Assembly (NCBI GenBank): GCA_028279065.1
Contig: JANQSY010000114.1
Span: forward strand, 1-36,553
DNA length: 36,553 nucleotides
Source: Cytophagales bacterium
GTDB lineage: Bacteria > Bacteroidota > Bacteroidia > Cytophagales > CCMP332
Reading direction: 5' to 3'
Shown: positions 1,411-4,517 of the stretch, in pieces
How positions within the stretch are numbered: position 1 is the first letter of the stretch
Layout of the letters: each line of letters starts with the position of its first letter
Position numbers and translations under genes: made by a program
The notes under the pieces: generated by a model
What the model was told of the DNA's origin: nothing
Databases searched by the model: none
What the model saw: the letters and a program-made list of their open reading frames with translations, nothing else

Positions 1411-2436
1411 ATGAAAAAGCTCGTACCGTCCATTGCATTAGTTGCAGCTATGCTTCTTCCTTTTGGCTGCAACTTCAATCCAGATCAACTTGTCCCTCCA
1501 CAATGGGATACTCAGTTCATTGGACCTCTTTTGAGAACAAATGCATCTCTTGATAATATTCTTGATATCGGGGACCAACAATTCCAGGAAGAATTTGTGA
1601 TCTGCGACCTCATCGGTCAGCCAAATTGTCAGGGGCAGATCATTGTTCCTCCAATTCCTCCAACGGACCTTCCCTCAGATACCATTAGCTATACGGACAT
1701 TTATAATCAGATCACCCTTGATTCGGGGATTCTGAACCTGGACATTACGAATACCCTTCCATTTAATGTCAAAGCCGGACTTGTAATTGAGATCAAGAAT
1801 ACCGATGGTTCTATCGTGGTAAGCTTTACCCTCAGTCAGGACCTGGCTGCGAATAATGGTAGCGCTTCTTTTACCGATGACCTTGCCGGAAAGTCTCTAA
1901 CCTCGGAATTCATTTTAGCCTTCAGGAATTTTGCTTCCGATGGAACAGGAGGAAATACTGTTACCATCACCGGGGATGAAAAAATTGGTTTTGTTTTCAA
2001 TGTCATTACCCTCAAGGTAAGATCGGTTTCATTAGTGCCGGGTAATGTTTTTACACTTACTGACACCTCTGCCTTTACCCTTGATGACGGCATAGTTATC
2101 AATTCTGAGCCCCTAACAGGAACTCTCAACATCCTTGCGGACAACCAGTTTGCAGCTGGATTTGTCTATCAGGCGGTGTTCTTGGATGATCTCAACAACG
2201 TGGTGGAAACCCTCTTCGATTCGGTGGGTATCCTCTTTCCAGATTCACTTTCTACGCTGTCAGTTGAGGTTACTGAAGAAACGATCTTAAACCTGAAGGC
2301 CGCAACGTCTGTGGCCTCGAGAATGGACTGGGTTGCGATTCCCAATAATCCGTCCTTCGATGCGGTTGAGCTTTTTAACACCGATTCGCTAAAGGCCACC
2401 TTGGTAGCTGAACTAAAAGTAAGGGTCAAGCCATGA
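1411..2436 (+). CDS. Secreted lipoprotein of unknown function
   Basis: This is a 341-residue protein from the ATG at 1411. That start is chosen because it gives MKKLVPSIALVAAMLLPFGC, a classical lipoprotein signal with the lipidated Cys at 20; an in-frame TTG at 1372 would add 13 residues in front of it. The mature protein starts with a Pro/Trp segment (PPQWDTQFIGPLL) and is rich in Asp, Asn, Thr and beta-forming residues. The segment around LDITNTLPFNVKAGLVIEI resembles the LEA-like beta sandwiches often seen in Bacteroidota surface lipoproteins. I do not recognise a named family. It overlaps the next gene by ATGA, so the two are translationally coupled and probably work together at the outer membrane. 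Confidence 0.8.
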   Translation: MKKLVPSIALVAAMLLPFGCNFNPDQLVPPQWDTQFIGPLLRTNASLDNILDIGDQQFQEEFVICDLIGQPNCQGQIIVPPIPPTDLPSDTISYTDIYNQITLDSGILNLDITNTLPFNVKAGLVIEIKNTDGSIVVSFTLSQDLAANNGSASFTDDLAGKSLTSEFILAFRNFASDGTGGNTVTITGDEKIGFVFNVITLKVRSVSLVPGNVFTLTDTSAFTLDDGIVINSEPLTGTLNILADNQFAAGFVYQAVFLDDLNNVVETLFDSVGILFPDSLSTLSVEVTEETILNLKAATSVASRMDWVAIPNNPSFDAVELFNTDSLKATLVAELKVRVKP

Positions 2437-3788
2437 GGAAGATATATTCCATACTATTCCTTGTTCTGCTGAGCCATTTGGGCTGGTCCCAATACAATAC
2501 CGGAACGACCTATTGTGAGCATAATGACCTAAATGCCTCAAGGTATCAACCCTCAGAAATGGACTTTGGGGAGCGTCAATTTCAGATCGGCTTGAATTAT
2601 GATTTCTACGTAGCCAACAGGTACATCAACTACGATGATATCAGGAATTATTATCGGGAGAATGAGATCGAAGAAGAGGACAATGAGGTTTTGGTATTCG
2701 AAAATCAGGGGGATAATATCATCAGTTTTGGCCAGAATTTTCAGGTCATCGGATTTGGATATCAGTTCAGAACCCAGGATGACCGCAAGTTTGATTTTGC
2801 CTTCCAGATAGTGGATAAGGCAACGGGAAACTTCGATGTTTCGGAAAACTTCACTACTCTGGTATTTCAGGGCAACAATAATTCCACCTTCAGAGGTAAC
2901 TGGGTTGATCTGGGGAAGACGCAGGTTCAACTACATTACTACAGGGAGTTTGCAGTCAATTTTGCATTCCCAATTCTCTATCGCGACCAAAATCATACCT
3001 TCAGGCTTGGAGTGAGGCCAAAGTATATTCAGGGTATCGGAGCAATGAAAGCGGTAAAATCCGACATCAATATGTACACCTCCGAGAGCGGTGATGAGAT
3101 CGGGATCAATTTTGACTATGAATACAAGACCTCCGGTCTTCTGAACTTCAATCCTACAAACAATAATGGTCGGGGCTTTGGAATAGATCTTGGCGCGACC
3201 TATTTCATCAATGAGCATTTTGAGGTTGTGGCTTCAGTTCTGGATATCGGAAGCGTTAGATATACCGATGATATCACCAATTATGCAAAGCAGGGCGACA
3301 CTACCTTTACCGGAATTGAGGCGGATAACCTTTTTGCCAATCAAGGTTCAGGATTCCAGGATTTTATAAACTCTCTTCAAAAGCAACTGGAACCGGTTGA
3401 AACAAGAGGAGGGGATTTCACCATGGCGCTTCCAACCAGATTTAGCCTGGAGGTACAATACCGGACTCCTGAGAAGAAAAGAAACGACCGGAGATACGTT
3501 TCAAATTCCATCTATCTGACCTATATCCAGGGCTTGAATACCCAACCGGGCAACACTACAAGGCCTTATGTTTCCTTGGGCTATATGCACGATTTCCATT
3601 CCTGGTTTGATGTAGGGGGTCTGGTATCCTATGGAGGGTTCAATAATTTTGCCCTGGGAGCTTTCTTCGCAGTAAATATTATGGAGTCGGCCAAATTCGG
3701 TTTGGCCTCGGATAATCTTACGGCCTGGCTATTTCCGAAGGAAGGGACGGGTTTGGATGTCTCTATGAATCTTTCCTTCTCGTTCTAA
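2433..3788 (+). CDS. Outer-membrane beta-barrel protein, DUF5723-like
   Basis: This is a 451-residue exported protein. The first 19 residues form a signal peptide ending LGWSQ. The mature part has the alternating polar/aromatic pattern of transmembrane beta strands and ends in SMNLSFSF, a typical barrel C terminus with terminal Phe. The early LNASRYQPSEMDFGE segment and the later RLGVRPKYIQGIGAMKA segment recall DUF5723 proteins of Bacteroidota, whose function is unknown. The assignment to that family is from memory of the pattern and is moderate. Its ATG overlaps the stop of the lipoprotein gene. Its TAA (3786-3788) sits inside the A-tract that forms the U-run of the minus-strand terminator downstream. 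Confidence 0.75.
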   Translation: MRKIYSILFLVLLSHLGWSQYNTGTTYCEHNDLNASRYQPSEMDFGERQFQIGLNYDFYVANRYINYDDIRNYYRENEIEEEDNEVLVFENQGDNIISFGQNFQVIGFGYQFRTQDDRKFDFAFQIVDKATGNFDVSENFTTLVFQGNNNSTFRGNWVDLGKTQVQLHYYREFAVNFAFPILYRDQNHTFRLGVRPKYIQGIGAMKAVKSDINMYTSESGDEIGINFDYEYKTSGLLNFNPTNNNGRGFGIDLGATYFINEHFEVVASVLDIGSVRYTDDITNYAKQGDTTFTGIEADNLFANQGSGFQDFINSLQKQLEPVETRGGDFTMALPTRFSLEVQYRTPEKKRNDRRYVSNSIYLTYIQGLNTQPGNTTRPYVSLGYMHDFHSWFDVGGLVSYGGFNNFALGAFFAVNIMESAKFGLASDNLTAWLFPKEGTGLDVSMNLSFSF

Positions 3789-3819
3789 AAATAAAAAGCC
3801 GCCAAATAATTGGCGGCTT
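3789..3819 (-). terminator. Intrinsic terminator reading on the minus strand
   Basis: A perfect 10-base-pair stem (3796-3805 with 3810-3819) and a 4-base loop, core AAGCCGCC/GGCGGCTT, is followed on the minus strand by TTTTTATTTTT. On the plus strand it is followed by AATAATTTGG, a poor U-run, so the terminator works best for transcription coming from higher coordinates. It could still give some stop to the plus-strand barrel gene, whose stop codon is 7 bases away. Confidence 0.8.
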
Positions 3820-3918
3820 AATAATTTGGGGGTGCGTTATTGGAGACCTTTCAAATCCAATAAGGGAACAAAAGCTATCCCCGCAATCGTTCACTGACAC
3901 CCCCATATTCCTCCGTTT
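3789..3918 (-). ncRNA. Candidate small structured RNA (family not recognised)
   Basis: Read on the minus strand, a TAAATTTG promoter box (3932 to 3925) is followed by about 13 unstructured bases. Then comes an 8-pair closing stem (3905-3898 with 3834-3827, TGGGGGTG/CACCCCCA), which encloses a hairpin GGGGA/TTCCC (3882-3878 with 3868-3864) and a perfect 7-pair hairpin CCAATAA/TTATTGG (3837-3843 with 3857-3863). Together they make a three-way junction. Seven bases later the intrinsic terminator ends the unit. The total length is about 130 bases. No convincing open frame fits. It does not match tRNA, SRP RNA, tmRNA, 6S or the riboswitches I know. The 5' end is estimated from the box and no -33 element is evident. 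That it is transcribed is inference. Confidence 0.5.
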
Positions 3919-3924
3919 TCATTC

Positions 3925-3932
3925 CAAATTTA
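3925..3932 (-). promoter_or_regulatory. TANNTTTG promoter box for the minus-strand RNA candidate
   Basis: The minus strand reads TAAATTTG, an exact match to the Bacteroidota -7 consensus TANNTTTG. It lies about 20 bases upstream of the closing stem of the RNA candidate. It is one arm of a perfect 9-base inverted repeat, CCAAATTTA/TAAATTTGG (3924-3932 and 3943-3951). The other arm therefore gives an equally good box on the plus strand (3943-3950), pointing away towards the lipoprotein gene at 4056. Confidence 0.4.
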
Positions 3933-3952: not shown

Positions 3953-3973
3953 TATCCCCACATTTGGGGGATA
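3953..3973. repeat. Hairpin TATCCCC-(7)-GGGGATA
   Basis: Perfect 7-base arms (3953-3959 and 3967-3973) flank a 7-base loop in the gap between the barrel gene and the lipoprotein at 4056. The left arm belongs to the 9-mer GCTATCCCC that also occurs at 3874-3882 inside the RNA candidate, and the right arm overlaps ATTTGGGGG, which also occurs at 3824-3832. Confidence 0.4.
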
Positions 3974-4043: not shown

Positions 4044-4051
4044 TATTTTTG
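4044..4051 (+). promoter_or_regulatory. TANNTTTG promoter box of the small lipoprotein gene
   Basis: TATTTTTG matches the Bacteroidota -7 box exactly and ends only 4 bases before the ATG at 4056. Transcription normally starts about 5-8 bases after this box, so the message would have almost no leader. No clear -33 TTG is seen at the usual distance. Confidence 0.5.
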
Positions 4052-4055
4052 ATTC

Positions 4056-4517
4056 ATGCTAAAATTCATCCCAGGTATTCTAATGTTGTTCGTTCTGATA
4101 TCCTGTGGCTCGGAAGATGAGCAGGATCCCGGTCCCGGAGTAATGATCATTGCTCCGGACAACCCAATGGAGATCAGAACCATTCTTTCCTCTTCAAATT
4201 CCAAGGAATGGGTCACAACTGAATTCACTATGGCTGGAATGGAACTAGAATGCAGGTTGGATGATACCTTTGAATTCAACAATGACGGCTCCTTCCGGTT
4301 TGATGGTGGGGATAAACTATGCGGCTTAGAGGATATTCTGACCATAAGAGAAGGAACCTGGACTTTGATGGCAGATGAGAACAAGATCAAATTCGACCTG
4401 GGATCAGGCGAAGTCTACTTCGCAGACTACCAAAAGATCACAGAAGAGGAGATCAGACTCTCCGGCTCTTGGGGAGGAATGAAGATCAAAGGGGCATTTG
4501 TTCCCTCTGATGGTTGA
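4056..4517 (+). CDS. Small lipocalin-like lipoprotein
   Basis: This is a 153-residue protein with a lipoprotein signal (lipobox LISC, Cys at 17) followed by an acidic linker GSEDEQDPGPG. The body reads as a small beta barrel: KEWVTTEF, FEFNNDGSFRFDGG, EGTWTLMADENKIKFDL, YQKITEEEIRL, GMKIKGAFVP. This 'work out the blank, add the term, test the residual' order is the pattern of lipocalin-like (DUF5004/DUF4923-type) Bacteroidota lipoproteins, and I give it as a fold guess only. Two Cys in the body (about 63 and 89) could form a disulfide. It has its own promoter box and converges on the response regulator gene, 3 bases apart at the stops. Confidence 0.75.
   Translation: MLKFIPGILMLFVLISCGSEDEQDPGPGVMIIAPDNPMEIRTILSSSNSKEWVTTEFTMAGMELECRLDDTFEFNNDGSFRFDGGDKLCGLEDILTIREGTWTLMADENKIKFDLGSGEVYFADYQKITEEEIRLSGSWGGMKIKGAFVPSDG

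Follow-up and report, generated by a model that had tools for sequence, protein, structure and literature searches.

What is encoded on the minus strand of the gap between the gene of a DUF5723 barrel protein and that of a small lipocalin-like lipoprotein? This was the question raised by a window of 36,553 nt (the whole stretch of DNA analyzed, positions 1 to 36,553 of contig JANQSY010000114.1, assembly GCA_028279065.1) from a Cytophagales bacterium, hereafter G000. A first-pass annotation had proposed here an independent minus-strand RNA of about 130 nt belonging to an undescribed family. Whole-genome searches found the element in two other genomes of the family, one of the same genus (G001) and one of another genus (G002, a single 3.3-Mb contig), on the identical strand and between the identical pair of genes, with the same gene for a LuxR-type response regulator coming next. 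The features of the locus are collected in Table 1.

Table 1. Features of the locus and candidate target sites (window positions unless a locus is named)
Feature	Position	Strand	Remarks
DUF5723 barrel gene	2433-3788	+	Pfam, E value 1.9e-44
Predicted sRNA transcript, ~132 nt	3787-3920	-	start predicted from box rule, end in U-tract
Terminator U-tract	3787-3795	-	read from sequence; overlaps last 2 bases of DUF5723 stop codon
Intrinsic terminator stem	3796-3819	-	10 bp, 4-nt loop
Conserved 77-nt core	3828-3904	-	identity to G001 75/77, to G002 70/77
Closing stem P1, 3' arm (G/A)CACCCCC	3828-3835	-	pairs in 3/3 sequences
Hairpin P3, 8 bp (3856-3863/3837-3844)	3837-3863	-	100% conserved in three genomes
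P3 loop UUUGAAAGGUC, 11 nt	3845-3855	-	invariant; likeliest seed
Middle hairpin, first-pass pairing (3876-3882 with 3864-3870)	3864-3882	-	favored in folds of the window and G001 sequences but not of G002
Middle hairpin, alternative P2' (3883-3892 with 3866-3875)	3866-3892	-	possible in 3/3; exposes invariant GGGGAUA loop
Closing stem P1, 5' arm GGGGGUGU	3897-3904	-	pairs in 3/3 sequences
-7 promoter box TAAATTTG (TAnnTTTG of Bacteroidota sigma-A)	3925-3932	-	exact match
Inverted repeat TATCCCC-N7-GGGGATA	3953-3973		-33 to -53 of predicted sRNA start
Small lipoprotein gene	4056-4517	+	weak lipocalin-like match
AGACCTTTCAAAT sites after nqrE	L053:1182-1194 and L061:1500-1512		two species

Constraint, boundaries and fold of the element

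The core is 97% identical to its counterpart in G001 and 91% identical to that in G002, while the fourfold-degenerate sites of three neighboring genes are only 14 to 41% identical in the same comparisons, that is, saturated; the core is therefore under very strong constraint at the nucleotide level. A binomial calculation at the neutral rate gave probabilities of 6e-26 (G001) and 2e-21 (G002) for this degree of identity, and 8e-6 and 3e-6 when the rate was instead taken from the best-conserved neighbor gene, as its identity over all nucleotides. The remaining intergenic DNA can scarcely be aligned with that of G002, and the conservation of the core is nucleotide level without a coding pattern. 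On these comparative grounds we are confident that a structured RNA gene exists at this position, very probably that of an intergenic small RNA (sRNA), apparently transcribed separately, restricted to the family and not yet catalogued.

The exact promoter box described in the first-pass annotation is present, slightly beyond the interval (3789-3918) given there. The sigma-A box TAnnTTTG of Flavobacterium occupies positions -12 to -5 (PMC9723704), and by taking the box in the same way we predict a start at about 3920 and a length of about 132 nt. The box alone is no evidence, as boxes of this kind are expected by chance (20 in the window versus 24 expected). G001 carries an exact box, TATCTTTG, immediately before the conserved stretch and at near-identical spacing; it has been retained although the sequence surrounding it has diverged, and conservation within the genus begins right after it. 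It is the conservation in two relatives, together with this spacing in G001, that lifts the predicted element above chance. No exact TAnnTTTG box was found at the locus in G002, nor was a -33 TTTG element found.

The inverted repeat farther upstream has a similar spacing in G001 and is degenerate or weak in G002, and a search for a regulon sharing it found no second copy in the genomes of G000 or G001. One of its arms is complementary to the GGGGAUA stretch of the predicted sRNA, and in G001 and G002 it is followed, on the plus strand, by T-rich sequence. It may be an operator or a plus-strand terminator, and its association with the sRNA is putative.

At the other end of the element, the 10-pair terminator with its U-run was borne out. 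Only the minus side carries the T-run, which reads TTTTTATTTTT in the window and TTTTTATATTTT in G001 and consists of nine T in G002. In G001 one G-C pair of the stem has become A-U by changes on both sides, a compensatory change that keeps the pairing. G002 has an unrelated stem sequence, still with a T-run after the stem, so that a Rho-independent terminator, or its equivalent of stem and U-tract, is found in all three genomes. The swapping of the terminator in G002 with the body of the RNA fixed marks the end of the gene. Folding energy alone does not tell the strands apart, and the G-U pairs that the minus strand forms in P1 of the window and in the middle hairpin of the first-pass annotation become A-C mismatches on the plus strand. 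Synteny in three genomes, polarity and replacement of the terminator, the box kept within the genus, and the absence of an Rfam match all support the predicted minus-strand RNA.

The RNA predicted from 3920 to 3787 folds at -49.3 kcal/mol, compared with -32.7 +/- 3.9 for shuffled sequences (z = -4.2), and none of 200 shuffles was as stable. Its 8-bp closing stem P1, which had been recognized from the window alone, has a single U-A/U-G alternative, at the last pair, and P3 forms without any variation in all three sequences. Of the two internal hairpins first drawn, P3 stands, with its 8 bp and 11-nt loop, while the middle one (GGGGAUA with UGUUCCC) is uncertain, being one of two mutually exclusive pairings of which G002 clearly favors the other, P2' (pair probability, 0.97). 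In P2', GAAC..GC is paired with GC..GUUC and GGGGAUA forms the loop; in the window and in G001 the two pairings have similar energies, each hairpin being evaluated alone. Most of the differences found in G002 sit in the P2' stem, where two U-U mismatches turn into A-U and G-C, two pairs swap between G-U and G-C, and one C-G pair is broken. The covariance model called for at the outset was built from the core. Among the three near-identical sequences no core pair has changed on both sides between standard pairs, which, with sequences so few and so alike, does not count against the stems; the one compensatory change is that of the terminator.

The same box rule touches the downstream gene. A box TATTTTTG at window positions 4044-4056 would put the start on the A of the ATG of the lipocalin-like gene, and G001 carries TAGTTTTG at the matching position. 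The boxes of the two genomes suggest that this gene is read as a conserved leaderless mRNA.

Distribution and relation to known RNAs

The covariance model was run on 390 genomes of the order and 395 of the class under strict filters that weak members may escape, and it found no member beyond the three genomes (387 other genomes of the order and 395 of the class). A scan of 84,980 species with an exact 19-mer pattern of the loop found G001 as the sole true member; matches in Aquificaceae, Soehngenia, and Bacillus are three chance matches covering the loop hairpin only. Likewise discarded were BLAST matches in two genomes (G049 and G019) and a model match in another (G266), all within coding sequence, as well as matches in G006 and G024 that have only terminator letters in common with the element. 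Viral contigs, phages, and plasmids were searched and did not contain it, and DUF5723 barrel loci of other families lack it and have, where seen, a different downstream neighbor. Under lax settings no credible paralog was found in any of the three genomes. Its known range is one family and three genomes.

The absence of a known family, Flavo-1 (RF01705) included, held in Rfam searches of the three species at gathering and lax thresholds, which returned only scattered subthreshold matches that did not repeat. Among these, frnS, Spot 42, NsiR4, and manA-II were far below the Rfam cutoff and did not recur in G001 or G002. ARAGORN detected no tRNA or tmRNA gene in the window. A subthreshold match to 6S RNA (20.5 bits) is located at L068 (G000:C112:25507-25633).

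The closest known systems are the intergenic sRNAs of Bacteroides, GibS and the "high-confidence" class with a transcription start site and a terminator (PMC7366714), which are alike in their intergenic position, a TAnnTTTG-type promoter, although that of the present element is a predicted one, an intrinsic terminator, a length of about 130 to 145 nt, and conservation within a narrow clade. GibS is set apart, by description, by a long single-stranded 5' region (PMC7366714), whereas the element described here has a 5' leader of about 15 nt and a closed multibranch core. Rfp18 and other structured RNAs of Flavobacterium psychrophilum (PMC9723704), likened here by description, are independent transcripts, as the present element is predicted to be, and share with it strong folds, restriction to a clade and the lack of an Rfam match, but they come from another lineage of Bacteroidota. 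6S RNA and 6S-Flavo (RF00013 and RF01685) are stand-alone structured RNAs too, the latter near in size, and Flavo-1 is a structured intergenic RNA motif of Bacteroidota; neither has a covariance model match at the locus, and the element differs further in its junction fold from the former and in being single copy in the genome from the latter. Intergenic sRNAs are a well-known kind, and the present element is best placed among them as a new, previously unlisted member. A limited search of the open-access literature found no Cytophagales sRNAs with mapped starts, and a strongly constrained sequence amid drifting intergenic DNA provides a concrete entry point.

Proposed function and alternative explanations

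We propose an intergenic, independently transcribed, structured sRNA of about 132 nt that would act in trans by base pairing through the P3 loop, a proposal that, with its seed and trans action inferred, we consider somewhat favored overall. Transcription would run leftwards from about 3920 and stop near 3789 at the intrinsic terminator of the gene. The RNA would fold into a core closed by P1, with the stable P3 hairpin, a middle hairpin perhaps switching between its two pairings, and the terminator hairpin at the 3' end. The invariant 11-nt loop of P3, possibly together with the GGGGAUA stretch, would then pair with target mRNAs. Both loops are invariant, and that of P3, the most conserved single-stranded part, looks like a seed; if it is one, its targets, including a possible one linked to nqrE, are directly testable.

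The complement of the P3 loop, GACCTTTCAAA, occurs outside the locus 6 times in G000, 10 times in G001, and 3 times in G002, compared with 5, 2, and 5 occurrences of a reversed-pattern control, and is clearly above the control in G001 only. A 13-nt perfect complement, AGACCTTTCAAAT, lies beside nqrE at orthologous positions in G000 and G001 (-17.8 kcal/mol), about 30 nt past the nqrE stop codon and about 65 nt before the start of a lipoprotein gene, in surroundings that have diverged. G002, with an identical P3 loop, has this site only in a broken form (-7.6 kcal/mol). Relatives that lack the sRNA and have a readable nqrE end showed no match to the P3 loop after nqrE, an absence that fits the site being a target. 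Judged from the box of the lipoprotein gene, transcription of that gene would begin about 43 to 55 nt farther downstream, so the site probably precedes the lipoprotein promoter instead of lying in the lipoprotein mRNA and, as a target, would have to belong to the nqr transcript at its 3' end. We regard it as a lead to a possible target of the sRNA.

Other explanations of the locus have to be weighed against an sRNA acting by base pairing. The conserved loops might be protein contacts and not antisense seeds, the RNA serving as a sponge, a scaffold, or a 6S-like partner of RNA polymerase. The near invariance of stems as well as loops, which exceeds what a short seed needs, is consistent with such a role, as is the lack of a target supported in all three species; moreover, no 6S or 6S-Flavo match above the cutoff was found anywhere in the three genomes. 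6S RNA is defined by a long rod with a central bubble. The three-way junction found here is unlike that rod and no 6S model matches the sRNA locus, and on the whole we think a protein-binding RNA possible but unlikely. In a further reading, the middle hairpin of a lineage-specific regulatory RNA has two states, with GGGGAUA either sequestered against UGUUCCC or exposed as a loop, and the RNA would thereby change between one seed (the P3 loop) and two; this is in our judgment rather improbable.

The RNA would also overlap entirely a long 3' untranslated region (UTR) of the DUF5723 mRNA, if that mRNA crossed the element and ended at the inverted repeat, which would then be its plus-strand terminator. 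The repeat is terminator-like, and the T-rich sequence that follows it in G001 and G002 agrees with a cis-antisense role, but antisense pairing requires neither a conserved fold nor conserved loops, the DUF5723 gene is retained in other families without the element, and the repeat is weak in G002, all of which make this quite improbable. Even less can be said for a short coding gene, either a leader peptide or a longer minus-strand frame through the core, which we hold to be very improbable. A 15-codon ATG frame (MKTEEYGGVSERLRG) does follow just after the box in G000 and G001, with both differences between them synonymous; however, G002 has no start codon and has a stop slightly upstream in that frame, and the -12/-5 rule would place part of the ATG ahead of the start site. 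Across the core, six of the eight differences are nonsynonymous in the longer open minus frame, while variation is seen at just 1 of 12 fourfold third positions, so by these comparisons the constraint acts on nucleotides and not on a peptide. Finally, the gap might hold inverted repeats by coincidence, and a single box is indeed expected by chance, but the conservation and fold statistics contradict this explanation and the conservation in G002 refutes it, leaving it a negligible probability.

Two other observations were made in passing. Further complements of the P3 loop lie about 50 to 60 nt upstream of a lipoprotein gene in G001 (L051, reversed, position 1501) and of a gene for a likely secreted protein in G002 (L049, reversed, position 1501). 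A second, more distant NqrE-like gene is present in G000, G002, and G001 (L093, L094, and L095, respectively), with 46 to 47% identity and perhaps of the RnfA/RnfE type.
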